This document shows positions 3,361-20,397 of a stretch of DNA of 20,532 nt, in pieces. The notes below the pieces were generated by a model. That model searched no databases. It had not been told where the DNA came from and was given only the letters and a program-made list of their open reading frames with translations. The position numbers were made by a program, and so were the translations under genes. This DNA is from a virus. The stretch's first letter is position 1, and every line of letters begins with the position of its first letter. Where the stretch lies: IMG/VR virus record IMGVR_UViG_3300027872_000030, positions 1-20,532 of that record; one strand, 5' to 3'.

Positions 3361-5379
3361 TTACGGAATACCCACAAAGCCTCGCAATGTAGTTCCGTCG
3401 CACGTCACGATTGCAGTATTGGCAGTCTCTAGTGTCAGGACTGCGCCAGCAGAATTGTTCTGTATTTCGATAGTCTCGCCACCAGTATTAACCACAACAA
3501 AAGTCATGCCTGCGCAGTCAGCTTCTGGTGGAAACAATAAATCTTCGGTTGTACCACTCTGAGCGTCAACATACAACACGTTTGCAGTTAGTAATGTGCC
3601 TGCAGGCGTACCAGGCACGAGAGTCAGCGTTACAGCAACATCGCCCATATTTATGGTCTGGACGCCTTGAGCGAACACGCCTGCGCCGATAGTGACTTGG
3701 CCGGGTGCTCCGGCCGTTCCGCCGCCAGCTCCGCCGCCCGCGCCGGCAGTCAAGGTAATAGTTCCGCCTGTTCCACCAACGCCCGCGCCCGCACCAGAGT
3801 CTCCACCTGCGCCGGCTGTAATGGCTAGAGCACCACCAACGCCGCCATTTCCAGTAGTGTTTCCTGTAAGTCCTGCGCCAGTGATTAGAGATAATGCGCC
3901 GCCTGCGCCGCCAACAGCAGCAGCAGTGGCCGATGCACTTCCATCACCTGTTTTGATGTTAAATAACCCACCTGCACGCCCTGTGCCGGCTCCGCCATCG
4001 GCTCCGCCATCTTCTGTTTCAAGATATGCATCATGCCCTGCGGTATCAGCGGCGGCGGCAAAGGCTGCTATGGCAGCCTCGTCCGCCTGTAATAAATCAA
4101 CCCCGCCAATCTGGATAGTAAACGGATCGACGCTGTTCAGTGTCAGTTCCGCGGCTGTGGTGATCTTCTTTGCTGTAGCGATGGATATATCGCCGCCCAG
4201 GAAGAAGTCCAGAGCCACTCCCAGGCCACCGTCAGTCTGGAGGGATCCTGTAACTGTGCTGGTGGAATCAGTTACATCGTCAATGATGATGCGTCCTGCG
4301 GTTAGCATATTGCCTGCGCCTATACTAAGCGCATAGCCAGCCGTGATAGTAGCTGTTCCAGCGGCCAACGGCGCGGCTGCGATATACACCGTGGATGCTA
4401 CAGCCGTTGCAGGAGCAGCCGCAGAAGTGATCGTTGGTTGCCCTACCGTAAGGCCTAGCCCGTTCATGGCATTGACGCCTGTCGCTCCTGTTAAGGTGGT
4501 AATTCCAGGAGCTAATGATACAAGGTTATGAGTGACGCCAGCAGCGGCCACGATAGTCGCGGGTATCCCGGTCGCGGTTATATTAGCCGTCCCTGTGACG
4601 GTATTCCTTGTGTCAAGTACGAGGAATTTAGTAGTCGCGTCATAGAACTCAAGAGCGGCCACTGCGTTGGCTGGTACGACTATATCGCCAGCCGCGGTTC
4701 CCATATCCAGGTCGCCGGCAACTAATTTGAAACCAGCGTCGGACGTAATCTCCAGAGCAGCGCCGATGCCGCCGTCAGTCTGGATCGATCCTGTCGTACC
4801 GGTGGTTGAATCAGTTACATCATCAACGATTATCTTACCAGCAGTCAGCATGTTACCAGAAGCTATATGCAACGCATAGGGAGCCGTGATGGTTGCCGTG
4901 CCCGCGGCGGCTGGTTCGGCTGCGATATATACCGTTGACGCTGTTGCCGTCGCTGGTGTGCCTGCTGAGGTGACTGTCGGCTGCGCCACCGTAAGGCCTA
5001 AACCGTTCAGTGCGGTTACTGCTGAGTTCCCTGTTAGCGTGGTCGTTCCAGAAGCCAACGATAACAGCTTATGAGTGATCCCGGCGGCGGCTACTATTGT
5101 TGCAGGCATACCGGTCATGGTGATGTTGGCTACACCGGTCACAGTAACGCGGGTATCGAACACCATAAATTTCGTTGTGGAATCGAAGAACTCCAGAGCA
5201 GCTATTGTATCGGCTATAACCGTAATATCGACGGCGGCTGCCGAATAGTCAGGGCTACCGCTAGTTACTCCTGACGGCCCTATCGTAAATACTGATGCTC
5301 CTGATGTGACGCTATAAAAGTCAAGCTGCCCCTCTTTGCCGCTTGTGTCCCAGCGCGAACGGACTAGTGTTACTGGCAT
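3361..5379 (-). CDS. Large repetitive, glycine-rich fibre-like virion protein, 672 aa
   Basis: The start is set at 5379 (MPVTLVRSRW) because GGAGG lies six bases upstream; a further ATG at 5391 overlaps that site. Residues ~51-218 and ~232-399 are two related copies offset by exactly 181 residues: AALEFFDSTTKF versus AALEFYDATTKF, and TDGGIGAALEI versus TDGGLGVALDF. Then follows a stretch (~458-566) built of GGxGG and ITAGAGG units, then a compact C-terminal beta domain with FVVVNTGGETIEIQNN. Such Gly-rich repeat blocks occur in phage fibres and receptor-binding tips, where they can form polyglycine-II-type helices. A head-fibre, tail-fibre or appendage role is inferred. Next to the capsid operon, a head-attached fibre is plausible. 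Confidence 0.85.
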   Translation of the reverse strand: MPVTLVRSRWDTSGKEGQLDFYSVTSGASVFTIGPSGVTSGSPDYSAAAVDITVIADTIAALEFFDSTTKFMVFDTRVTVTGVANITMTGMPATIVAAAGITHKLLSLASGTTTLTGNSAVTALNGLGLTVAQPTVTSAGTPATATASTVYIAAEPAAAGTATITAPYALHIASGNMLTAGKIIVDDVTDSTTGTTGSIQTDGGIGAALEITSDAGFKLVAGDLDMGTAAGDIVVPANAVAALEFYDATTKFLVLDTRNTVTGTANITATGIPATIVAAAGVTHNLVSLAPGITTLTGATGVNAMNGLGLTVGQPTITSAAAPATAVASTVYIAAAPLAAGTATITAGYALSIGAGNMLTAGRIIIDDVTDSTSTVTGSLQTDGGLGVALDFFLGGDISIATAKKITTAAELTLNSVDPFTIQIGGVDLLQADEAAIAAFAAAADTAGHDAYLETEDGGADGGAGTGRAGGLFNIKTGDGSASATAAAVGGAGGALSLITGAGLTGNTTGNGGVGGALAITAGAGGDSGAGAGVGGTGGTITLTAGAGGGAGGGTAGAPGQVTIGAGVFAQGVQTINMGDVAVTLTLVPGTPAGTLLTANVLYVDAQSGTTEDLLFPPEADCAGMTFVVVNTGGETIEIQNNSAGAVLTLETANTAIVTCDGTTLRGFVGIP

Positions 5380-5420
5380 TGTAGCCTCCATACGCTTTCG
5401 CGTTTAGAGCGGTGGTTCCG

Positions 5421-6438: not shown

Positions 6439-7794
6439 TTAGTCGCGGGCTGCCAACTCAATGAATGGAGCTTGAGTATCGCCTCTTGCTGGCTTGAAGT
6501 TTTCCGGCCACCACGGCTGCCCGTCCATGTCGAATATAATCCTGAATGACGTATGCGCTGTGTTAAAGTACAGATGTATAGAAGTCTCTGTCTCTGCGCC
6601 TGGCCGTCCGGCTGGCTGCCCGACCAGATACTGCGACCAGTCAAACAGGCATATGTCGCCAACGTCACCGACTATGCTCATCTGGGACGACCATGAGAGC
6701 GGAATCCCTAGCAGGCTATATGTGGGCTTGCCCTTTACGTCCTGGTTAGTCAAGAAGACGCCAGATCCACCAGTACCTACAGCCAGAGACAGCTTTATAA
6801 GCTGCGGCAGTACCGTTCGGTTAGAGAACCATGAGCCTGCGCCTATATCATCATCGCCAGAATACAGCCTCGCTACCATATCGGCTACGTTATCCAGGAT
6901 GAAAGTATTGACAATCTGATTGGTTGCTTTTGGCACCGTGACCTTATGATCGCCTGATGTAAGTACGCCTTTGGGCTGCTTTGCGCCAGTGCCACGTATG
7001 GCCGCCTTCGTGATAGCCGTACTCATGCCCTGGTCAAATACTCGCTGAATGAGCGACTCTATAGACACTGCTGAAAATTTCAACAGGTTCCGCGATACCT
7101 TCACAGCGCCAATAGCCTGCTTCAGGTTAAGCTCAACCGCGCCAGTCTCGAAGTTGCTCTCAGTGAAAGCCTCCTCTTCGCCTTCCCAGTAGAATTGACC
7201 ATTGCCGAAGACCTTGCCTTGAGACTCGTCAAAACCATTCAGGAAAGGTATTACCACCTTGTCATACGCCATCGGGATGATGGTAGCTCGACTCAAGACA
7301 GGGTTGATTGCCCGCTGTCTATCAAGTGCCGTGGCGACGTACTCGGTCGGAACTAAAGTACCGCCAGTCTCGGGAGCGCCAACGGTCTGTGTCGCCTTCA
7401 CCTCAGAACGCCAAATCTTCAACTCTTCCGACTCGACCTTCTCCAATCCCTCGGTCATCAAGTCAGCAGCCATGTGTCCGAGAGACTTAAAGGGGTTCTT
7501 ACGGATGGGCTTCTCTTCGGTTTCCCGAATGTCTATATTCAATCCGTCAGGCTTCTCCAGGAATTTCAGCAAGGTCTTCTGCTCTTCCTGGAGCGTGACG
7601 ATTGCTGCATCCCGCTTTGCTATCTCTTCGCTCTTCTTATCACCTTCCGGCGCGTCTGCTTTTAGCACTTCGGCCTGGGCTTTAAGCTGCTCTTCCTGAA
7701 CCTTCTTGGCGTCAGAAATGGCGACAAGCCCTGCACGCTGTTTGATCTTATTCATCAGCGCTCTTTCTTCTTTGGTTAAATTCAGTTCTGCCAT
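6439..7794 (-). CDS. HK97-fold major capsid protein with N-terminal scaffold (delta) domain, 451 aa
   Basis: Forms the icosahedral head shell. Residues 1-~120 are charged and strongly coiled-coil-forming (KKVQEEQLKAQAEVLKAD, TLQEEQKTLLKFLEKPDG), as expected for the delta domain that scaffolds procapsids and is cleaved away. The mature fold begins near ETGGTLVPTEYVATAL (~142-157), the usual HK97-type entry motif. The N-arm and E-loop then follow, with characteristic segments such as LNLKQAIGAVKVSRNLLKFS and a C-terminal RIIFDMDGQPWWPENF. The start at 7794 (MAELNLTKEE) is placed by GAGGTG upstream; a GTG start three codons earlier would overlap it. The presence of a delta domain implies a maturation protease, and the only candidate is the fused protein just upstream. 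Confidence 0.93.
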   Translation of the reverse strand: MAELNLTKEERALMNKIKQRAGLVAISDAKKVQEEQLKAQAEVLKADAPEGDKKSEEIAKRDAAIVTLQEEQKTLLKFLEKPDGLNIDIRETEEKPIRKNPFKSLGHMAADLMTEGLEKVESEELKIWRSEVKATQTVGAPETGGTLVPTEYVATALDRQRAINPVLSRATIIPMAYDKVVIPFLNGFDESQGKVFGNGQFYWEGEEEAFTESNFETGAVELNLKQAIGAVKVSRNLLKFSAVSIESLIQRVFDQGMSTAITKAAIRGTGAKQPKGVLTSGDHKVTVPKATNQIVNTFILDNVADMVARLYSGDDDIGAGSWFSNRTVLPQLIKLSLAVGTGGSGVFLTNQDVKGKPTYSLLGIPLSWSSQMSIVGDVGDICLFDWSQYLVGQPAGRPGAETETSIHLYFNTAHTSFRIIFDMDGQPWWPENFKPARGDTQAPFIELAARD

Positions 7795-7939: not shown

Positions 7940-10429
7940 TTACACACACTTTTTGCCTCGTGCGGCCAGCAGTCTTTCCGCAAATGTCACGATCTTATCG
8001 TCCCCTGCGGCTTTCTTTTCCTCATCGTCTTGATCGAGTAAGTATTGCGCCATCCCTGGCGTTATTTCTGAGTCCACCAGATCGCTCCCTGCCTCTTCCC
8101 CTGTTCGTCTCAATTCCTCTTCATTGAAAAGCTCTTTTGTCTCAACTCTCTGTAACCCGGCCACAAGATCCATCTGATCGCTCATCCTGATCATGCTTTC
8201 AACCAAAGCCGCTCCGGCACTCATATCCTCATCTTCCGCTATCGTCAGCGAATATTCCACTAGATGATTGATGTGCGCTCCTGAGAAGCCTTCAGTAGCC
8301 TTCACGAGCTCATCGAGTATCGCTTCCGATATATCGCCAGCCCAGAGCTTAAACATCTGCTTCCGCTGGCTATCGTCTGGCAAATCGAACAGTATGACGT
8401 GGTGGAATCTCCCAGGCCGATCTATCAACGCCTTCGGCAGTTTGTCCGGGTGATTCGTGGTAAGTATCGTCATGAGTCCTTTATTCTGCTTGAGTCCGTC
8501 CAGTTCGGTCTTGAGCATATCTTTATCAAGCGATCTGTCTATATCTTCCATAAACAATACAGTCGGTGCTAACTTTCTCGCCATATCGAATGCCAGCGCC
8601 ATGATAGAGCTAGGCATCCCATACATGAAGTCCCTGGCAGATACCCAGATATAAGTGCTGTCGGTATCATTCATTATGGTGCGCCCTGCTTTTGTCTTGC
8701 CTGTACCTGGTGGCCCTACGAATAGCAAGCCGCGACTGTTCCCGCCGGATTTGCTGGTGATATTCATCGACTTCTGTATTGCTTGCTTGTCTTTGGCGTT
8801 GATGATTAACTCATCCCACTCGTCATCAGTATTTGATAGAAATTCTCCAGACAGCGCAAACTTCTCACCTTTTAACATGTGATTACTGTTCGCCTCTTCG
8901 TGAATGGCGTTCATTATCTCATCGCTTCTAGCCTCGTGGCCATCGCTGGTGATAATTGAGAACTGCATTCCGCCCCAACTTGGTGCAAAGTCCTTGACCA
9001 GCGCCATATCGCCATCATGACAATACTGACTCCCATCCACCAGAAAGCGCTTTCTCCTTCGTGAGTTTAGCTGTATGTAGGATCGGGATGGTGGAAATTC
9101 CTTGCCTTCGTATGAGAATCGCCGCGTATCATCTACCGCCATATCGTCCGTCACGATACTGATCGCTTCCAGATAAGTACCTAACAGCGGTGATGGTATC
9201 GAATAGCTATTGACGTATATATGCTTGACCTGGCAGTCGAGAAACTTGGTGAATAATGAATATCTGAATACCGTATTAGCTTCGTCATATTCGGCAATAT
9301 CGAATGATTTATCTAGCGATTTATTCCATGGGCCTACTGCCTTGCCTAAAGCTTTCCCCGGCTCGCCTTCGTTCGGAGTAAGATCGGTAGCGGTGAGCAA
9401 GTCGTCAATAGCGACAGTGGCAGAATCCGTAGCATCTCGCGTGGCGGCCAGCATCTTGCGATTCTTTGCAGATATTTCACGGCCCGCCTTGAATGATATA
9501 TCCTCAATCCCCAGGCCTTTGCCGCCATCTTTCAACGGTGCATCCAAGTCGTCTAGTATCGGGTCACCATCTGGGTAAACTCTACGCAGACTGGCTGCAA
9601 GCCTATTTACCGGGGCGTCATCTTCGATAAACTCCTTAGTTCCGCCTTCTTTGAGCGTATAGGCGTCTTGCTCGCTTTCAAGCAAAAGCCCTTTCTCAAC
9701 AGCTAACGATACCGCAAACGGATTCGAGGGGATCATGACTTTTGAGTATTCCAGCATGATAACCTTCGTGAATATGCGTTTGAGTCCGTCCAGCATATCG
9801 GCAGTAGCCTCTCTGCCTTTTAGAGCAAGGAATGCCGTTGTGCGCTTCACCCAGGAGTCATGTAGCTTTTCCCAGCCTTTATCTTGCGGCTCCAGCCATT
9901 CCACAGGTATAAAGCCTATGGAGTCGCCTATGGGCATATCTTCAATAGACCACTGGTAAAGCTGTTCAGCTAACGGGTTAGCTTTCTCGGATGCAAATAT
10001 TGTCTTAGCCAGAAGCGAGTGCATCCGCTCAACGGCAGATTTCTCGTTAGGGACGATCCATTCGTTTTTTCCTAAGCCTATTTCGCTATAAAGATGGCTT
10101 CGTAATACAATAGGCAATGCCCTGTAATCATCCAGAATGACCGCCTCTGGCAGAATAGCCTCGCTATCCCTGTCCTTTGCAATGGTGCTGATATAGGACT
10201 GGACAAAACGACCTTTACCTTTAGCGTCAGCCCTGCCCTTCTTGTTGATGTCGCATACGAAGTCTTTAAGGACGTACTGGGCGTCATCTATACTCAAGCC
10301 GAAGTCTTTCTTCGCTCGTTGTGCCACTGATTCTGCAATCTTCATGAGACCATGAGCAGCCACATCTTCGCCAGCCTTGCCAGCTTCACCAAGCTGTGCC
10401 ATCAATGCGTCTAATGTTATCCGATCCAT
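7940..10429 (-). CDS. Prohead protease-like / AAA+ ATPase fusion protein, 829 aa
   Basis: Two regions are recognisable. Residues ~75-245 fit the HK97 prohead protease family (U35/S78): the entry STIAKDRDSEAILP, then PIVLRSH (H112, candidate catalytic His), YQWSIEDMPIGDSIGF (S170 in SIGF), and IMLEYSKVMIPSNPFA (E227/S229), matching the family block LxExSxVxIPxNPxA. Residues ~255-370 are an acidic linker and ~375-550 an unassigned N-domain. Residues ~560-735 form an AAA+ module: Walker A GPPGTGKT (572-579), Walker B VLFMEDID with ED in place of the usual DE, as in BCS1-like ATPases, sensor-1 N659, RPGRF with arginine-finger candidates, and the lid motif GFSGAHI. GAGGTG precedes the ATG. It occupies the protease slot between the head morphogenesis and capsid genes. 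The protease assignment is by motif and spacing; the ATPase assignment is firm. Confidence 0.88.
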   Translation of the reverse strand: MDRITLDALMAQLGEAGKAGEDVAAHGLMKIAESVAQRAKKDFGLSIDDAQYVLKDFVCDINKKGRADAKGKGRFVQSYISTIAKDRDSEAILPEAVILDDYRALPIVLRSHLYSEIGLGKNEWIVPNEKSAVERMHSLLAKTIFASEKANPLAEQLYQWSIEDMPIGDSIGFIPVEWLEPQDKGWEKLHDSWVKRTTAFLALKGREATADMLDGLKRIFTKVIMLEYSKVMIPSNPFAVSLAVEKGLLLESEQDAYTLKEGGTKEFIEDDAPVNRLAASLRRVYPDGDPILDDLDAPLKDGGKGLGIEDISFKAGREISAKNRKMLAATRDATDSATVAIDDLLTATDLTPNEGEPGKALGKAVGPWNKSLDKSFDIAEYDEANTVFRYSLFTKFLDCQVKHIYVNSYSIPSPLLGTYLEAISIVTDDMAVDDTRRFSYEGKEFPPSRSYIQLNSRRRKRFLVDGSQYCHDGDMALVKDFAPSWGGMQFSIITSDGHEARSDEIMNAIHEEANSNHMLKGEKFALSGEFLSNTDDEWDELIINAKDKQAIQKSMNITSKSGGNSRGLLFVGPPGTGKTKAGRTIMNDTDSTYIWVSARDFMYGMPSSIMALAFDMARKLAPTVLFMEDIDRSLDKDMLKTELDGLKQNKGLMTILTTNHPDKLPKALIDRPGRFHHVILFDLPDDSQRKQMFKLWAGDISEAILDELVKATEGFSGAHINHLVEYSLTIAEDEDMSAGAALVESMIRMSDQMDLVAGLQRVETKELFNEEELRRTGEEAGSDLVDSEITPGMAQYLLDQDDEEKKAAGDDKIVTFAERLLAARGKKCV

Positions 10430-11221: not shown

Positions 11222-12142
11222 TCACGCCGCCTCCTTGAGCGTTGAAGCCCCGTGTGAACATCTACAATTTACGATCTCTTCGGCCGGCCCGTTGGGATCA
11301 TGCGGGAAGCGCAGCCCATTACTGAACCGCTTGCCTAGCTCGACCTCTTCGCCATCTATCCGATGCGAATGCCTCACCTTGCTATCCCTACTATCTATCC
11401 ATACGATGGTCGCTACAACGTCGCTATCAACGAAGCCCTGAAACGTTCCCTGGTTACTAGCTCCCACTATCTCGGTACGTGCTATCGTATCCGTCCTGGA
11501 TCCCTTCGCTATATCGAACACATCGGCGACACGCTGCGATAGCTCAGGTATTGACTCGCCAGCATCGAATCCAGTAGCGAGTGCCGTCCTGAGTCTTGCC
11601 TGCGTCGTCTCGTTCACTTCTTTGGCAAACTTAAAGACACGGTTCTGCAGGATCCTTCGTGCGTTGGCATTAGTGACGTCAAATGCAGCTTCCAAGCCTA
11701 TCTCGGTAAACGCCGCCTGTCCAGCCTCCTGGAAGGCTGTCGTGACGAATGGACGTGCTACCCGCTCGAATATCGGTATCCAGGTAGCCACCACAAATAT
11801 GTCATCAACGAACGACTCCGCGGCGACCTCTGCCTCTTCGCTAACGACTTTCTCAATAAGCAAATCATAAACGCCGTTGGTGCCCCAACACCCCTTTTCG
11901 CCATCTCCTGCCTGCCTGTACGTTACGACCTGTATCGCCTTGCTTGTATCCGGCGGCGTCTTGCCTCGCATCTTACTCAACACCGACCGCTCCTGCCTAT
12001 TGAACGTCTTTATCAATTCAGGCTTGAAGGCGTCCTCAGTATCTTCAGTGCGTTTGGCGAATATGTCCCAGCGCACTTCCAGATCAACCTCAACGGCTAT
12101 CTTGTAGGTCAATATTTCGAATGGTGTTAGGTTAGTTGTCAT
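11222..12142 (-). CDS. Phage head morphogenesis protein, Mu F / SPP1 gp7-like, 306 aa
   Basis: Proteins of this family are minor head components that associate with the portal and influence assembly or DNA ejection. The family's C-terminal domain spans ~183-298: LRTALATGFDAGESIPELSQRV, the ARTEIVGASNQG block (221-232), VWIDSRDSKVRHSHRIDGEEV, and DPNGPAEEIVNCRCSHG (282-298) with its paired cysteines and histidine. The N-terminal part (1-~180) is helical and contains an extended pattern (FNRQERSVLSKMRG) like the linker found between portal and gp7 domains. AGGCAGG precedes the ATG. It lies several genes after the portal, separated by unknown genes. Confidence 0.9.
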   Translation of the reverse strand: MTTNLTPFEILTYKIAVEVDLEVRWDIFAKRTEDTEDAFKPELIKTFNRQERSVLSKMRGKTPPDTSKAIQVVTYRQAGDGEKGCWGTNGVYDLLIEKVVSEEAEVAAESFVDDIFVVATWIPIFERVARPFVTTAFQEAGQAAFTEIGLEAAFDVTNANARRILQNRVFKFAKEVNETTQARLRTALATGFDAGESIPELSQRVADVFDIAKGSRTDTIARTEIVGASNQGTFQGFVDSDVVATIVWIDSRDSKVRHSHRIDGEEVELGKRFSNGLRFPHDPNGPAEEIVNCRCSHGASTLKEAA

Positions 12143-12150
12143 TACCTGCC

Positions 12151-12942
12151 TTACGTAGGTTTCGTCTGGTATTCTATGCCGCTCAAATCTTTCTGAAAAA
12201 TACTCATATCGGGATCTTCGTCCCCTTTATACCACGGAGCGACGTTTGGCACGCCAAGCTTGCGGAGTAGCTTAATGCAGTCCGTCATTAACTGAATCTC
12301 GCCTTCGTCATCCCAGCCGTGTCTAACAAGTTGTCTCATCATATCCGCCAACTCAGGCGCGTGGCTCATGACTTCCATCTGTGCGTCAGTGGCAGATCCT
12401 AGATTTTCTACCAGATAGCGTACACGCCCGTCTGGATGCATAATGCGATCCTCATATTGGCCATCTACACTTACCGCTTCACGCGCCCACCGCTCAGATG
12501 CTACGTCGTTCTGATAACAATCCTTACTCTCTGGTTGGCTACAATAACCCCTATGAACGCAGTTGAATTTGGTACAGGTATTCTCCGTGCATTTCTCATC
12601 TTCTGCCGCCACCGGCTCACATAACGACTCCTTGAGTTCGGCGTTTTTGCGCCTCAAATCAATGTTTTCATCGAGAGCGGCATCTAGTAAAACCTTCTGG
12701 CTATCCACCTGAACCTGTAATGAGATCTCTTCCTGCGCCTTTTCCGGCTCGTCAACAAGGCGAATGTCTTTAAGCGTTCGATACTCCAAACTCTGACGGC
12801 CGTAATTAGGTGCTATCACCAAATCGGGAGCATAAGACTTAACGCGGCCTCGCATTACGTCGCAGGCGGCATCTGTAACCACCACTTCGAAGCCCTTCTC
12901 CCAAGCTACCCGCGCCTTCTCTTTTATCGTCATCTCCGCCAT
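12151..12942 (-). CDS. Hypothetical protein with Cys cluster and coiled coil, 263 aa
   Basis: Three regions. Residues ~1-62 are a beta-like N-terminal domain (FEVVVTDAACDVMRGRVKSY). Residues ~64-105 form a coiled coil (EKAQEEISLQVQVDSQKVLL, DENIDLRRKNAELKE). Residues 108-142 hold six cysteines (C108, C118, C123, C128, C134, C142) with spacing suggestive of a metal-binding knuckle. The C-terminal region contains SHAPELADMMRQLV, resembling the APELLEAL helix found in many small phage regulatory or accessory proteins. GGGGGC precedes the ATG. It lies between a small unknown gene and the head morphogenesis gene. Function unknown. Confidence 0.75.
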   Translation of the reverse strand: MAEMTIKEKARVAWEKGFEVVVTDAACDVMRGRVKSYAPDLVIAPNYGRQSLEYRTLKDIRLVDEPEKAQEEISLQVQVDSQKVLLDAALDENIDLRRKNAELKESLCEPVAAEDEKCTENTCTKFNCVHRGYCSQPESKDCYQNDVASERWAREAVSVDGQYEDRIMHPDGRVRYLVENLGSATDAQMEVMSHAPELADMMRQLVRHGWDDEGEIQLMTDCIKLLRKLGVPNVAPWYKGDEDPDMSIFQKDLSGIEYQTKPT

Positions 12943-13797: not shown

Positions 13798-14157
13798 CTA
13801 CTCAAAAACCAACTGCAAGCTATAATCTTTCTCAAATAACTCTTCCAAAATCTTCGATGGCTTTGCATTGAATTGACGCCCTATCCAATATTGGTTTTCA
13901 CCTTTATACTTTGTATATAGTTCCAGAAAGTGCGCGCTTGATATAGCCTGTCCAGAATCGGCCGCCTGTATATATTCTTCCAGATACATGTAGTCGCGGC
14001 TTGTTTCGGCGTAGGAGATTCCCCACACAAACAATACAGCAAGTAAGGCAACGCCGCTTATAAAAGCAATGAACTCCAGAGTCACGTTTACGCAATACCA
14101 CCCAAGTACCCATGATGTTATACATATTGCCACTAGACTTCCGATTATCCAGATCAT
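13798..14157 (-). CDS. Small membrane protein with two transmembrane segments, 119 aa
   Basis: Residues ~2-24 (WIIGSLVAICITSWVLGWYC) and ~28-48 (EFIAFISGVALLAVLFVWGI) are hydrophobic helices separated by a very short turn, so the protein is likely a hairpin anchored in the inner membrane. The C-terminal ~70 residues are cytoplasmic or periplasmic, charged and helical (DYMYLEEYIQAADSGQAISS). Its ATG overlaps the portal stop (ATGA), implying coupled translation. A membrane protein inside a head module is unusual. Superinfection exclusion, lysis or injection are possibilities, with no direct evidence for any. Confidence 0.75.
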   Translation of the reverse strand: MIWIIGSLVAICITSWVLGWYCVNVTLEFIAFISGVALLAVLFVWGISYAETSRDYMYLEEYIQAADSGQAISSAHFLELYTKYKGENQYWIGRQFNAKPSKILEELFEKDYSLQLVFE

Positions 14158-15623
14158 CCCCTACCCCCTATAGTCCTCTGCGATTTCACCGTGTCTATGA
14201 GTCGGTGTATTCGTTCCGTCGTCATCTGCTCTATTTGCGGTGCTTGTGCCTGTCCCGCCATACTGACCGGCACTCTGCTGGTGTCTACCCACGGCTCCGC
14301 CATCAAGCCCCCAAGCGGTTCTTTGCCATCACGGATCCTGATCTCGTCTGGTGTACTTGCGCCAAACTTGAGGTATACCGAATCCTGCTTCAGCTGAAAC
14401 TGCTTGTCTTCCAATACCGGGTTATCAAACGCTATGATGATGTTATCGTTGAACTGCGGCGTGAGTTGAGCATTTAACGCCTCGCCAATGAGCGTGCATA
14501 GCGGAGCGGTGCTGTATAGCGCAAACTGAGTCAGCGATGCTTCTAGCCCGGCTCTCGTGCTTGTCTGCCCTGTCATTAACGCCTCCGGTATAGAGAAGTT
14601 ACGAAGCATCTCCTGCATCAACTGCTCTCTGGCCTGACGGTAATCCAACTCGCGGGGCGTCATGCCGAATGGCTTTGGCTCAACGTTCTCCATGACCATC
14701 CACTTGCCGGCATTTCTGACGCCAGACTTTGCCGCCTCAAACTGCTCCAATAGCTTCTTCTGCTGTTCTGGAGTAGTCCTGCCTGTAGTACTCAAGACCC
14801 CGCCAAGACTCGCGTCATTCTTAAAAATACGTTCATCAAACTGCTGCATGTTCTCTGTCAAGTTGAAAGCATCAGCGGCACCAGCCACGTCGCCTCTGCC
14901 GTGGAATTGATACCTGGCCCCAGGAGCGTAGAGCCTGAAATGGATCACATCCTCTGGCGGGAAGATATGTTCTTGCGATCCACGCTTGTAGACGTATTCT
15001 TTGACCAGCGTATTCTCATCAGGTCTGATACGCATATACTCAGACGGTGCTATCCAGATAGCAGCCGGGACGCCCAAGCCGTTCCGTATCAGCACCCAAT
15101 ATGCGTCGCCTGTTAAGGACATATAAGCTGTCGTGACGAACTTCAAGCCGTAATTATCCCATGCTGAGTTGACGTTCAAGAGCAGATCCACCAACGGATG
15201 CCCGCCGGTTATTTCTTCCAACTCTTCCGCGCTCGCAGCTACCGACCCCGGCGTTGCCTTGCCGATAATCTCGCGCTGTATGTGCTTGGGTACCGGCTTA
15301 ACCTTCGTGATCTTGAATGCACTCTTGGTTCCCGGCTCTTTCGTCTTGAACACCCTCAACGGCGTGGTTGCCAGCGCGTTCCCTATCAGCTTTACAGAAG
15401 CATGTATATTACGCTTATTAGCCTGTATCTGAGCGATAGGGCTGTCCGGGTCGATAACTGTGCCGCTGATGCCCGTCATCATGTTGACAAAGCCCAGGAT
15501 GCCATCATGCGAGCCATCGAATCTGATAGCCTTGCGTCCTGATAGCATACCGCCAAATAGCGGGTCCCAGTATCGCGCCAGGAAGTTATCTTTTGCTATA
15601 GTTACTAAGCCTCTGCTGTTCAT
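14154..15623 (-). CDS. HK97-family portal protein, 489 aa
   Basis: Forms the dodecameric ring at one capsid vertex through which DNA is packaged by terminase. Family features are seen in order: SVKLIGNALATTPLRVF near the start (~76-92), WDNYGLKFVTTAYMSLTGDA (~155-174), APSEYMRIRPDENT, VIHFRLYAPG, then the long stem-region block QFDERIFKNDASLGGVLST (~261-279), the helix LMQEMLRNFSIPEALMTGQ (~335-353) and the C-terminal crown. The start at 15623 is chosen because it overlaps the preceding stop (ATGA); an in-frame ATG at 15635 is an alternative. Length (489) is somewhat above the commonest ~400-450 for this family. Confidence 0.93.
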   Translation of the reverse strand: MNSRGLVTIAKDNFLARYWDPLFGGMLSGRKAIRFDGSHDGILGFVNMMTGISGTVIDPDSPIAQIQANKRNIHASVKLIGNALATTPLRVFKTKEPGTKSAFKITKVKPVPKHIQREIIGKATPGSVAASAEELEEITGGHPLVDLLLNVNSAWDNYGLKFVTTAYMSLTGDAYWVLIRNGLGVPAAIWIAPSEYMRIRPDENTLVKEYVYKRGSQEHIFPPEDVIHFRLYAPGARYQFHGRGDVAGAADAFNLTENMQQFDERIFKNDASLGGVLSTTGRTTPEQQKKLLEQFEAAKSGVRNAGKWMVMENVEPKPFGMTPRELDYRQAREQLMQEMLRNFSIPEALMTGQTSTRAGLEASLTQFALYSTAPLCTLIGEALNAQLTPQFNDNIIIAFDNPVLEDKQFQLKQDSVYLKFGASTPDEIRIRDGKEPLGGLMAEPWVDTSRVPVSMAGQAQAPQIEQMTTERIHRLIDTVKSQRTIGGRG

Positions 15624-15859
15624 CGGTGTACCCATTTATTAACGATAACCCGAAAAGTAGCCGCTGTGGCGTTTACTGCCCTGGCAAAGTCTTCTGCGCT
15701 TATACCTGCCTTCATCATGACCATCATCCCTTTGAACAAGGCAACCTCCAGCTGCTCATCACTGTGCGAAGATAGATCAAACCCCACGGCCACCATACCG
15801 ATTCGTATGTTCCGTAGTGCCTTCCGCCGCTTATATGATAGCCACCATTTCTTTATCAT
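15620..15859 (-). CDS. Small hypothetical protein, 79 aa
   Basis: Basic, helical N-terminus (WWLSYKRRKALRNIRIGM) followed by FDLSSHSDEQLEVALFKGMM and AEDFARAVNATAATFRVIV. No family is recognised and there are no cysteines or membrane segments. Its ATG overlaps the previous stop (ATGA), and its own stop overlaps the portal start, so it is coupled on both sides. A portal- or terminase-accessory role is only a guess from position. Confidence 0.7.
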   Translation of the reverse strand: MIKKWWLSYKRRKALRNIRIGMVAVGFDLSSHSDEQLEVALFKGMMVMMKAGISAEDFARAVNATAATFRVIVNKWVHR

Positions 15860-16327: not shown

Positions 16328-17623
16328 TCACAGCATCCATATATTGGCTTTGTCGTCCTCATGGAAGCGTGTAAATAACGCATACCTCTCAGCGTCCTGC
16401 AAGTGGTCTTTTTCCTTGACAGGACTTTCTTTATCCAGGACCTTTCCGCTTCTATCCGTCTTCCATCGATAAGTGCGCTTCTCCCGTAAATGATTGACGC
16501 TGGCAGTCAATATCTTAGGCCGCCTGGTATTTACAGAGTCAATGCCAGCGCCTACCGAGTTCTTAGCAGGAAAGATATTGAATCCTGCATCGTATATCTC
16601 ATCAATGAACTCAGGTTCGTTGGGGTCTGCATAGATCTCATCACTTTTCGATATGCCAAGTTCTTCCATTCTGGCTATACGATCAGCGTTCTTCATCTCA
16701 GTTTCATATATTAACTCTCGCTCATATATCTCAGTATCCAGGATGCCTATCTCTAATAATGCAGTCTGGTTTCTATACCCAAAGTCCAGCCCATATATCA
16801 CCTCGTCGAACTTATCAGGCCAGTCGGCTTCGCTTATCTCTTCGTAGTTGACGTATATGCGCTCTGCCAACGCTGTCCATAGCCCCTGGTCATATATGCT
16901 ATACCTCTCCGGGTCTTTCTCTTTGAGAGCCGCGAGCATAGCCACGTACTGATCGTCTACCCACTTATTATTACGCCAGGTAGAATGGATGACGGTAGCA
17001 TATACCTCAAGGTGTCTGCGAAGCTCTGGTATTTCGATAACGAGCTTGATACGAAAGCTATTACCATCGTCCCACGTCTCTAGTTTAGGAGCATTCTCGG
17101 AGTCAAAGAACTCGTCATTGAGCCAGCTAGTATCATCCATTGGGTTGAAGGTCATGACGATCTGGAAATAGCTGGGAGCCTCACCACGGAGCCTGAGATC
17201 GAGCTGTCGGAAGTCTGCCAACGTAAATCCAGTCGCCTCTTCCATCCAGATACTTGTTATGTTTTCGATCGACTTAACCTTCTCTGGATCGTCAAGCCCT
17301 GAGCATATTATGAACGACCCGCCAGCCCATGTCAAGGATAATTCCGACTTGTTCACCTTGACGCCAGGCAAGCCCCAAGCGTCTATGTAGCTCAGGAAGA
17401 GGGCAAAGACGCTATGTTTGACCGATACTGACGTCTTACGCAAGCACAAAAAACCCTCTTGATAGCCTTCCTTCTCTGCCTTCTCGATTCTCAAGAGGAT
17501 CTTCTGTGCCACTTCATGACTCTTACCGCTACCGCCGCCGCCGTAAGGCAGTAAATACCTGTCGTGGCATTTTATCAAGTCGAATAATTGCTCGTTAGCT
17601 GTCTGTACGAGATCAACTTCCAT
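16328..17623 (-). CDS. terL: Terminase large subunit (PBSX/Terminase_3 type), 431 aa
   Basis: ATP-driven DNA-packaging motor with a C-terminal nuclease. Walker A is YGGGGSGKS (K34), Walker B is SIWMEEA (E128/E129), and the coupling motif is TFNP (158-161). The nuclease domain shows GLDFGYRNQTALL (D280), YADPNEPEFIDEI (D333) and DHLQDAERYAL (D406/D410). The D280 and D333 motifs match the Terminase_3 pattern (LDFGY...; YADSAEPK...). GAGGT precedes the ATG. It follows the small subunit after one small gene, and the portal lies two genes beyond, as in many siphophages. The length is usual. Headful versus site-specific packaging cannot be decided from this gene alone. Confidence 0.96.
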   Translation of the reverse strand: MEVDLVQTANEQLFDLIKCHDRYLLPYGGGGSGKSHEVAQKILLRIEKAEKEGYQEGFLCLRKTSVSVKHSVFALFLSYIDAWGLPGVKVNKSELSLTWAGGSFIICSGLDDPEKVKSIENITSIWMEEATGFTLADFRQLDLRLRGEAPSYFQIVMTFNPMDDTSWLNDEFFDSENAPKLETWDDGNSFRIKLVIEIPELRRHLEVYATVIHSTWRNNKWVDDQYVAMLAALKEKDPERYSIYDQGLWTALAERIYVNYEEISEADWPDKFDEVIYGLDFGYRNQTALLEIGILDTEIYERELIYETEMKNADRIARMEELGISKSDEIYADPNEPEFIDEIYDAGFNIFPAKNSVGAGIDSVNTRRPKILTASVNHLREKRTYRWKTDRSGKVLDKESPVKEKDHLQDAERYALFTRFHEDDKANIWML

Positions 17624-17630
17624 TATTACC

Positions 17631-17942
17631 TCACGATACTCTGTAGGTAACTACAAAGAGGTCTTGCTTGTCTTCAGGGATGCTACTAAAAAACTTATCA
17701 TAAAATCGCTCTTCGTCATCAAGAATGTGGTCAGGTTCGCTTCTCAGGTGAATTTCAATCTGTAACTTTTCACATTCAGGCAGTTCAGGATCTTCTAATT
17801 GGCTAAATATTATACGTTCCACGCCGCGATAAACGTTATGGATTATTGCAATAATCGTAGGTATGAATTGGAGGATGCCTTTCCTGCGACACGTGTCTCT
17901 CGTTTCGTCAAGAAGCTCAGTAGTTGTTTTCTCGATAGCCAT
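17631..17942 (-). CDS. Hypothetical acidic protein between the terminase subunits, 103 aa
   Basis: The ATG overlaps the terminase small subunit stop (TAATG), so translation is coupled. Composition is acidic and helical (TTTELLDETRDTCRRKGILQ, ERIIFSQLEDPELPECEKLQ, then DEERFYDKFFSSIPEDKQDL). No family is recognised. Genes between terS and terL are uncommon but occur; a modulator of terminase is a natural guess without direct evidence. Confidence 0.7.
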   Translation of the reverse strand: MAIEKTTTELLDETRDTCRRKGILQFIPTIIAIIHNVYRGVERIIFSQLEDPELPECEKLQIEIHLRSEPDHILDDEERFYDKFFSSIPEDKQDLFVVTYRVS

Positions 17943-18379
17943 TATAGGTCGTCCTCTGATACTTTACCGCCAAAGCTGAAGGTCACGTTTCTGTCTATTG
18001 TTCCGCTATGCTCAACCTGCTCTTTGGGCTTGTGTCCATTCCTATCAAGTATGTCGCTTGCCGTCTTCTGCTGTAGCCTCAATATCTCAGGATCATCGCT
18101 CTTGACACCCATTATCTTGATATAAGCATTCGTCGCCATATCACTCATAGTACTCAATCTTTGACCAACTGCCGCCTTCCTATCTGACGTTCGCTTATAG
18201 AGTTCTGCTACTATTCCAGCATTCCTAAGCAAGCGGGAAGCGTCGTTATATTTGCCTGTTCCATCCTTATATCCAGCCCCCAAATATGAATCCACCAGAC
18301 TCATCCCCACCTCGATATTATCAACAAATTTCATCTGCCGGGGATTCAGTCGGTGTACAGCTTTCTCATGTTTTGGCAT
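17942..18379 (-). CDS. terS: Terminase small subunit, 145 aa
   Basis: Recognises the phage genome and hands it to the large subunit. The N-terminal helix-turn-helix-like block LNPRQMKFVDNIEVGMSLVDSYLGAGYK (11-38) matches the consensus LTPKQxxFVxxYLxxxNATxAAxxAGYS of Terminase_2-type small subunits. The central part (RLLRNAGIVAELYKRTSDRK) and the C-terminal oligomerisation helix with HKPKEQVEHSG, then a beta tail, also fit. GGAGA lies upstream of the ATG. It overlaps the end of the small ORF before it by 14 bases. Its position directly before terL strengthens the assignment. Confidence 0.93.
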   Translation of the reverse strand: MPKHEKAVHRLNPRQMKFVDNIEVGMSLVDSYLGAGYKDGTGKYNDASRLLRNAGIVAELYKRTSDRKAAVGQRLSTMSDMATNAYIKIMGVKSDDPEILRLQQKTASDILDRNGHKPKEQVEHSGTIDRNVTFSFGGKVSEDDL

Positions 18380-18525: not shown

Positions 18526-19557
18526 TCATACCACCTTCGGGAGCTGCGCTTGCTTCAACTTATCCAACATCTCTTCTCGAACAGTCTTTGCTATATGATA
18601 CATCATGACCGGCGGAACACTCAAACCCAATCTTGCCCATTGTTCAGCGAATGTTCCTATCAACTGAAAGTCATCAGGGAAAGCACATATTCGCTTGAGT
18701 TCTGCTATTGAGAATTTGCGTTTTTCTATCGAACCATCATTCTCCGCTTCGATCATCCCGCCTTTTTCATTACCGCCTGCCCCTAAGATAGCGACAGAGG
18801 GGCAATCACTATCTTTCCATGAAGGATGATAATAGTCTTTATTATGCGAGATCCGTAAACTCCACGGCAATACATCTCTCACAGTATACCTATAACTCAA
18901 TGGCTTTGGGTATTTAGGTTCTAACCCTAAATCATTTCGTACCCCTATAAATATCACTCGTTGCCGCGCCTGTGGAACACCTAACCATTGAGCATCTAAG
19001 AGCTTTACTTTGACATTATATCCACAATCTTTCAATCGTTGTAATATCAGCTTGAAATAGCCTTTTGCTTTGCCCTTAACCAATCCTGAAACATTTTCGG
19101 CAACAAATACTTTAGGCTGTAATCCTTCGAGTAACCGAGTATATTCAAAAAAGAGATCATCAGTTCGCTGTCGCTTACCTAAATATGCCTTCTCTTTGCC
19201 CCATTTTTCTGAACCTTTACCAGCTGTTGAAAATGAATCACAAGGTGGCGATCCATCCATTAGATCAAGCTCGCCTTTTTTCAATGATAATCGATCAAGT
19301 ATTTCTTCTGACTGGACCTGACGTATATCACTCTCGTCAACATAAGCAGTATGATTTAATCTATAAGTTTCAGCCGCTATCGGTATAAACTCATTAGCCC
19401 ATAGTACCTCGAATCCCGCCATCCTATAACCCAATGAAGAACCGCCACAACCTGAGAATGTAGAGATAACATTATATCCATTCCATTCTACCTGCTCTAC
19501 CTCAGACATTGATGGTACTCTATATTCTGGCTTATCTTCTATTGCTATAGCTTTCAT
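18526..19557 (-). CDS. DNA (cytosine-5)-methyltransferase, 343 aa
   Basis: Transfers methyl from AdoMet to C5 of cytosine. Conserved motifs in order: I STFSGCGGSSLG (34-39 core FSGCGG), IV DGSPPCDSFS with catalytic C106, VI VAENVSGL (E154 N155 V156), VIII QARQRVIFIG (196-204), then a target-recognition region, a block like motif IX (IAELKRICAFPDDF) and motif X. Motif X reads GLSVPPVMM, with Leu where most enzymes have Asn (GNSVPP). No cognate restriction enzyme is visible, so it is an orphan enzyme, as is usual in phages, where it often protects DNA. It starts by ATGA overlap with the 48-codon ORF. The 8-C tract just upstream replaces a ribosome binding site. Confidence 0.95.
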   Translation of the reverse strand: MKAIAIEDKPEYRVPSMSEVEQVEWNGYNVISTFSGCGGSSLGYRMAGFEVLWANEFIPIAAETYRLNHTAYVDESDIRQVQSEEILDRLSLKKGELDLMDGSPPCDSFSTAGKGSEKWGKEKAYLGKRQRTDDLFFEYTRLLEGLQPKVFVAENVSGLVKGKAKGYFKLILQRLKDCGYNVKVKLLDAQWLGVPQARQRVIFIGVRNDLGLEPKYPKPLSYRYTVRDVLPWSLRISHNKDYYHPSWKDSDCPSVAILGAGGNEKGGMIEAENDGSIEKRKFSIAELKRICAFPDDFQLIGTFAEQWARLGLSVPPVMMYHIAKTVREEMLDKLKQAQLPKVV

Positions 19558-19700
19558 TGGGGGGGGCTTTCTGTTAAGTAATACTCAATATAATGTTGAC
19601 TATGAGCACTTGCTGTAATACAAGGGGCTATAAGATATTCACCCTTACTCCATGATTCTGTACCTGTATCATTGATAAATCTTACCTTAACCTCATACAT
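19554..19700 (-). CDS. Small coupled ORF, 48 aa
   Basis: Translated by hand from ATG at 19700: MYEVKVRFINDTGTESWSKG, continuing to a C-terminus ending in TESPPQ and TGA at 19556. The ATG shares its A with the preceding ParB-like stop (TGATG), and its TGA overlaps the methyltransferase ATG (ATGA), so the three genes are translationally coupled. The predicted protein has a beta-strand pattern (VKVRFIN, EYLIAPCITASAH). It ends in a run of eight C residues. No family is recognised. Confidence 0.6.
   Translation of the reverse strand: MYEVKVRFINDTGTESWSKGEYLIAPCITASAHSQHYIEYYLTESPPQ
19559..19566 (-). other. Eight-C homopolymer tract at the gene junction
   Basis: On the minus strand C8 lies two bases before the methyltransferase ATG and inside the last codons of the 48-codon ORF. 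The ORF frame there reads AGC CCC CCC CAA TGA. A shift by -1 gives CCA ATG and reads straight into the methyltransferase frame. It is a potential slippage site for ribosome or polymerase. Confidence 0.7.
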
Positions 19701-20245
19701 CACTTAGGGCTTCCAGACCATTCATAGTCACATTTAGGACATTTGTATTCAGTATCTATATCATCACCATATTCAGGAAAGTCTTCTGGTGGCTCAACTT
19801 CTATCGACTGCATGGCCTCAATTCGTTCCAGCGTATACCCCATCCTCTGTATAGGTACATTCATCTCTATCAGATTCACGCTGATAGCCTTCAGCTTCAC
19901 CGGGTCATTCGTGGACATATCACTCAGAGCATTATCCCGGGCTAACAGCGCCAATGTTTCAGCATCCGTGAGATCCTTCACCACGAAGTCAGCGAACTTG
20001 CACCCTATCCCCAGGAGCGCCTCGTAGACACCGTGACCCTTATATAACCGCTTAGTAGATCTCTGGATTCCCATTGACCCGGCTATATATCCATCAATAG
20101 ATAGGCTGTATTTCAATGCTTTGATTTGTTCTAAGGAGTGAACTCGTGGGTTATCGGGATGCTTAGTTACCTCGGACAACGGGAGTCGCTGTAAATCCAA
20201 CTCTGCCACTTCCAGGGGGGAGATCGCTTTATCCGTTGTTGTCAT
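19700..20245 (-). CDS. ParB/Srx-like domain protein, 181 aa
   Basis: Resembles ParB-like nuclease domain proteins common beside phage terminases and DNA methyltransferases. Motifs: HPDNPRVHSLEQIKALKYSL (the ParB box), the KGHGVYEALLGIG block that corresponds to the GHxRxxA signature (the Arg is absent here), and VKDLTDAETLALLARDNALS. It ends in a half zinc-ribbon (CPKCDYEW). The start at 20245 is preferred, with AAGG in CAAGGCTCACAC upstream; a further in-frame ATG at 20275 is possible and has GGTGA next to it. Its stop overlaps the next ATG. The missing Arg in the box makes nuclease or CTPase activity uncertain; a DNA-binding or adaptor role is as likely. Confidence 0.85.
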   Translation of the reverse strand: MTTTDKAISPLEVAELDLQRLPLSEVTKHPDNPRVHSLEQIKALKYSLSIDGYIAGSMGIQRSTKRLYKGHGVYEALLGIGCKFADFVVKDLTDAETLALLARDNALSDMSTNDPVKLKAISVNLIEMNVPIQRMGYTLERIEAMQSIEVEPPEDFPEYGDDIDTEYKCPKCDYEWSGSPK

Positions 20246-20397
20246 GTGTGAGCCTTGATTAAATAGCAGGCGCATTTCACCAATTTATGCTACGCTAAAG
20301 CGGACGGTGTCTCGATTCCCGCCATCTCCTGCTCATGTCTGCATTAGAAATGCCGAAGCGTGGAACAAAGCTACATTTGCGACGGCCTTGATAAGAT

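Follow-up and report, generated by a model that had tools for sequence, protein, structure and literature searches.

A probable head maturation protease of the S78 family joined to an AAA+ ATPase in uncultivated bacterial viruses

Prohead proteases, which trim the interior of a freshly assembled virus shell, are regarded as small, ATP-free enzymes, and to our knowledge none of the characterised ones (HK97, T4, lambda) needs ATP. The T4-type prohead proteases have their catalytic residues in common with the herpesvirus protease (PMC5694885, PMC7411985). The S78 prohead proteases (PF04586) are a known family and are encoded, like the gene considered here, in the head module by the portal and capsid genes. 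The joining of such a protease to an AAA+ ATPase could not be found described, as far as searched. Among 50,697 annotated phages, no record matched at least 80% of the fused proteins, and the matches covered the AAA part only. A literature search, which was partly not aimed at fusions and had the subscription literature mostly outside its scope, likewise returned no such fusion. Within the phage records and literature searched, the architecture can be taken as new.

The fusion gene and its head-gene cluster

The DNA analysed, called the window below, is a 20.5-kb IMG/VR virus record. Its minus-strand head genes follow one another in the transcription order small terminase, large terminase, portal, MuF-like protein, fusion and HK97-fold capsid (Table 1). 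The fusion ORF, read in the first-pass annotation as one 829-residue protein, is indeed a single protein of that length and lies on the minus strand. It opens with an ATG at 10429, runs for 829 codons and is preceded by a good ribosome-binding site (GAGGTGAT-GGT-ATG). All the motifs that had been named in it are present, comprising S81-P94 (STIAKDRDSEAILP), H112, S170 58 residues on, and LEYSKVMIPSNPFA (226-239) in the protease part, and Walker A (572-579), E628-D629, N659 and RPGRF (671-675) in the ATPase part. The two parts are separated by a variable linker, where identity to the relative L002 falls to 25% as against 75-81% on either side. The linker carries a K-x-G-R-x-[LI]-S motif, which reads KAGREIS from residue 314 in the window protein, occurs in 24/47 fused proteins and is also found in an AAA-less homologue, L010 (KEGRVLS).

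Table 1. Head genes of the window and parts of the fusion protein
Feature	Coordinates	Strand	Evidence
S78 prohead protease-AAA+ ATPase fusion gene, 829 aa	7940..10429	-	ORF and ribosome-binding site; 46 distinct fused proteins
S78 (HK97 gp4-type) protease domain, residues 72-249	9683..10216	-	102 bits, E=6e-31, profile without window clade
Candidate catalytic His112 codon	10094..10096	-	Conservation; aligns with His of HK97 gp4 FNHK
Candidate catalytic Ser170 codon	9920..9922	-	Conservation; aligns with Ser of HK97 gp4 SVGF
Candidate third catalytic residue, Glu227 codon	9749..9751	-	Conservation; aligns with Glu of HK97 gp4 REISV
Variable linker with K-x-G-R-x-[LI]-S motif, residues 260-366	9332..9652	-	Identity drop against L002
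N-domain of AAA module with conserved LKGEKFALSGEF stretch, residues 367-540	8810..9331	-	pLDDT; profile of region
AAA+ ATPase core and lid, residues 541-745	8195..8809	-	PF00004 1.8e-20; fold search
C-terminal tail, residues 746-829	7943..8194	-	Low model confidence, pLDDT about 37-68
Major capsid protein, HK97 fold	6439..7794	-	PF05065 8.9e-34; TIGR01554 1.8e-49
MuF-like head morphogenesis protein	11222..12142	-	PF04233 4.4e-10
Portal protein	14154..15635	-	PF04860 5.5e-43
Large terminase	16328..17623	-	PF04466 6.6e-40
Small terminase	17942..18379	-	phrog_51 3e-6

The capsid gene lies directly downstream of the fusion gene in the window and in most relatives. It has an ATG start at 7794 with GAGGTGA upstream, and PF05065 spans residues 147-439 of the 454-aa ORF that is read from GTG. 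The capsid protein carries a delta-domain-like N-terminal extension of about 135-145 aa ahead of its core, and extensions of a similar kind are found in many relatives. Two capsid paralogues stand in tandem in L017, L055-L057, L060, L067, L070, L071 and L073; where the core motif was found, the N-terminal extension measures about 115-180 aa in one paralogue and about 50 aa in the other. Elsewhere in the window, a C5-cytosine methylase (18526-19557; PF00145 1.3e-57) and an ORF judged ParB-like by eye (19700-20275) are located upstream of the terminase genes, and positions 3361-5391 encode a 676-aa protein with internal repeats and without a family match.

Homology and predicted structure of the two halves

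The protease half of the window protein eludes the standard family models. Direct scans of its N-terminal half with Pfam, PHROGs and NCBIfam give no match up to E<=10, PF04586 hits nothing across the entire window at E<=1, and tblastn against phages returned nothing. These gaps reflect limited sensitivity rather than absence of the domain, because relatives of the protein and a profile built from the family do match. Relatives were taken from IMG/VR scans and include L002-L004 (65-71% identical overall), L006, L009, L010 and L017. The N-terminus of L017 matches PF04586 at 28.4 bits (cut-off 21) and annotated head maturation proteases at E=3e-18, and among 22 sampled relatives the N-termini of 15 match PF04586 and those of three match PF14550. 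Further evidence comes from an independent profile of 45 protease domains from which the window's clade was excluded. The window protein scores 102 bits against it (E=6e-31), whereas the highest score among 2,000 shuffles is 8 bits, and the same profile finds HK97 gp4 (1.5e-19), Twort (3.5e-16), My1 (1.2e-27) and phiKM1 (2e-37).

The family alignment places H112, S170 and E227 on FNHK, SVGF and REISV of HK97 gp4. Both Ser170 and Glu227 are identical in 55/55 distinct domains, and His112 is a histidine in 54/55, the exception being a gap in the truncated L063. The reading of the first third as a prohead protease is thereby borne out by homology through the relatives' profile, while the direct PF04586 match that had been proposed as a check did not materialise; a naive direct-Pfam test would wrongly have discarded the protease reading. 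An AlphaFold2 model of the domain reached a pLDDT of only 37 with six sequences, and became usable with 45 (pLDDT mostly 80-95). The fold search with the whole model lists AAA matches only. The AAA half accounts for most of the signal in such searches, so they are uninformative on the protease fold.

The AAA+ half is recognised directly, with PF00004 matching residues 568-682 at E=1.8e-20. Residues K578, E628, D629, N659, R671 and R674 are invariant wherever aligned in 59 distinct module sequences, so the Walker A and B motifs, the sensor-1 residue and the arginines of a full AAA+ module are present, as had been proposed, and fixed in the family. The AAA lid model gives 18 bits for the window protein, below its cut-off of 27.2, and 29.6 bits for L017, above it. 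A PDB sequence search with the module lists Cdc48 first. The AlphaFold2 model (45 sequences) has a pLDDT >90 through most of residues 391-740, and its fold search lists YjoB (7.2e-17) and Bcs1 (7e-16) first over about 420 columns including the N-domain, with TM-scores by target length of only 0.42-0.53.

The suggestion that the enzyme is Lon- or FtsH-like fares less well. No M41 or Lon protease domain was found in Pfam and NCBIfam scans of the window protein, and its sequence has no HExxH. Moreover, the fold search ranks YjoB and Bcs1 highest, and pore loop 1 lacks three residues relative to Cdc48 and varies across the family at its aromatic position. Because of this shortened loop and unconserved aromatic, FtsH-style threading is less likely than Bcs1-like remodelling, and we infer that folded or bundled substrates are more likely remodelled in the Bcs1 manner than threaded as by FtsH or Lon.

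Spread of the fusion and exchange of the protease domain

A scan with the AAA module by itself returned 67 contigs. They hold 56 distinct AAA-module proteins, with the protease in the same ORF in 46, in the neighbouring gene in seven, and cut off at the contig 5' end in three. The module is therefore joined or adjacent to an S78 protease in 53/53 distinct cases with intact context. Where the genes are split, the AAA gene lies upstream of the protease in L077, L101, L102, L103, L107 and L108 and downstream of it in L096; since the split genes abut in either order, the link between AAA module and protease is not one frozen accident. The usual gene order, where visible, is portal - MuF - [S78.AAA] - capsid. 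Profile homology, conservation across 55 domains, gene order and 46 fused proteins together support what had been read from one gene, namely an HK97-type prohead protease with a full AAA+ module in the protease slot. As judged from sequence, two complete predicted catalytic modules, joined or adjacent, occupy that slot. The fusion is present in dozens of uncultivated bacterial viruses, and the original observation is thus right and wider than a single gene could show. A first scan of genome contigs found no family member; a second yielded one true member, L018, on a contig of a Candidatus Cloacimonadota MAG, besides 32 AAA matches of more distant kinship. The split AAA module of L103 (334-5802) forms the C-terminal part of a 1823-aa ORF, with about 1260 residues preceding it.

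A second head protease (PF04586, ClpP-type PF00574 or S49 PF01343) was sought in the records of 12 larger relatives (40-135 kb). None was found, and the sole PF04586 match, where there was any, is the fusion protein itself, in keeping with the earlier statement that no separate protease gene is visible. Other genes of note were seen in two relatives. L006 encodes, in its head module, a subtilisin-like S8 peptidase upstream of MuF (48-1214; PF00082 5.4e-44, phrog_3677 5e-67), and L010 has a similar partial gene, recognised by eye (17-478). The idea that this subtilase is the real head protease was dropped, as no record other than L006 and L010 was seen to have it and the window does not. The MuF-like gene of L006 (1522-2901) has an apparent intein at a conserved C-terminal Cys motif, with Hint/intein matches below the curated cut-offs. 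L010 additionally encodes, in antisense orientation to its head genes, a TnpB/Cas12f-like transposon-associated protein (11442-12272), assigned by eye from its zinc-finger motif.

The AAA module is optional as well as mobile. L010 has a 494-aa homologue without it in the same slot, nested within the fused clade of the protease tree. Since this protein has the same protease without the module, ATP is not indispensable to the protease chemistry. Furthermore, the K-x-G-R-x-L-S motif, which belongs to the C-terminal region of the unfused protease, precedes the AAA module in proteins of the window's clade but follows it in L016-like proteins, so the place of the module in the chain is not fixed.

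The protease domain in turn varies against a constant background. L059 (1249-4209) and L061 (2262-5231) are 100% identical at the protein level over the stretch that starts right behind the protease domain and takes in the AAA module, whereas their protease domains share 62%; their upstream MuF DNA is about 95% identical. L089 and L091 have 100% identical AAA modules and capsid proteins and protease domains of 29% identity, with a crossover inside the gene and a left flank that also differs. For L002 and L053, TerL, portal, AAA module and capsid are 78-82% identical and the proteases 40-42%. Across the exchange pairs, which include L055/L060, protease identity is 29-62% versus 82-100% for the AAA half, and the flanking head genes are conserved in several. 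The S78 catalytic domain is exchanged as a cassette in a fixed head background, which is unexpected and, being frequent, unusual. One guess is that the exchange lets the phage evade host factors directed against the protease. A related proposal, that a tailed-phage lineage keeps an ATP-driven maturation machine, in which an AAA+ ring would remodel the scaffold inside and pass it to tethered S78 proteases, and treats its protease as an exchangeable cassette (29-62% against 100% for the AAA module), perhaps selected by host defences or inhibitors directed at head proteases, is put forward tentatively and is rather doubtful. The notion that the capsid protein is followed more closely by the AAA half than by the protease half was rejected, since over all pairs the two rank correlations hardly differ (0.46 and 0.47).

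Proposed role and comparison with known systems

The protein very probably serves as a protease in head maturation, and its AAA partner is very probably functional. That the partner drives ATP-dependent remodelling of the substrate in particular is a closer call, falling slightly to the doubtful side of even. Taken together, an S78 head protease that shares its chain with an AAA+ ATPase able to form a ring and to remodel scaffold by means of ATP is the account we favour, with reasonable though not strong confidence. The fusion protein would be built into the procapsid, where the AAA halves may assemble into a ring. ATP could then be used to pull, loosen or reposition the internal scaffold, the likely target being the delta-like N-terminal region of the capsid protein and perhaps MuF too. 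The tethered proteases would then cut the remodelled scaffold in cis, and the variable linker might later be cut or stay flexible. ATP hydrolysis may thus drive capsid maturation. It counts against this account that co-transcription together with mosaic recombination could by themselves hold the two halves together.

The main rival, considered unlikely though deserving attention, is that the AAA ring is a head-assembly chaperone for the incorporation of portal, MuF or capsid, tethered to the protease only for joint entry into the procapsid, while the protease works independently of ATP. YjoB is a chaperone/translocase-type rather than a degradation AAA protein, and the AAA fold is closest to YjoB and Bcs1. 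Bcs1 is likewise a chaperone/translocase and not a degradation AAA protein (PMC12219900, PMC11143374). The existence of a protease without the module in L010, the split genes, and the exchange of the protease domain independently of the AAA half also fit a chaperone. Against it stands the fact that the module is persistently fused with, or placed next to, the protease and not the portal, MuF or capsid gene. Less probable still is a ring that serves for oligomerisation or timing, whose ATP state clusters or releases S78 domains active only in the closed procapsid, with substrates not remodelled. The herpesvirus relatives of the S78 protease are active as dimers, the variable linker separates two conserved halves, and the pore loop is missing a conserved aromatic, all of which would suit such a device. 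All catalytic ATPase residues are nevertheless invariant, and a static scaffold is disfavoured because such residues would not be needed. It is very improbable that the fusion stays in the virion and that its AAA half enters the host by injection and acts there: MuF proteins, encoded next to it, can reside inside the virion, but no signal was found, the position next to the capsid gene is conserved, and the protease half and the slot point to head maturation. Misassembly, or chance motifs in an N-terminus that is no protease, may be dismissed despite the missing direct Pfam match in the window, given the margin over the shuffles in the profile test and the recurrence of the fusion as a continuous ORF in 46 distinct proteins across many metagenomes.

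A motor-joined family makes energy-driven remodelling of the procapsid testable, together with extraction of scaffold from a closed shell and the swap of a catalytic domain while motor and capsid protein stay constant. It also supplies names for many genes whose protease half escapes standard models.

Several described systems share parts of this architecture. Stand-alone FtsH/Bcs1-like ATPases of phages and bacteria, such as that of Erwinia phage phiEaP8, show a weak 23% identity over residues 371-766, in a match without the protease. FtsH and Lon also combine an AAA+ motor and a protease on one chain, and FtsH models detect the AAA core of the fusion. However, the protease here is of the S78 type and N-terminal to the motor, not an M41 zinc or a Lon Ser-Lys enzyme, and the fusion differs further in its shorter pore loop 1 without a conserved aromatic and in having no HExxH. 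YjoB and Bcs1 are the best structural matches to the N-domain and AAA core, and the Walker-B order E-D of Bcs1 is fixed in the fusion family. They differ in that the AAA module of the fusion is joined to a viral protease and is, by sequence alone, nearer to Cdc48. Bacterial AAA outgroups fall outside the single clade formed by all 56 fusion modules (support 100/99). The closest relatives on the protease side are the S78 prohead proteases of HK97 (gp4), the T5-like My1, Twort and phiKM1, whose domain is homologous, with the H, S and E residues aligned. Those proteases are 203-261 aa long and have no ATPase, whereas in the present family about 400 aa of AAA module follow on the same chain or are encoded by the next gene.
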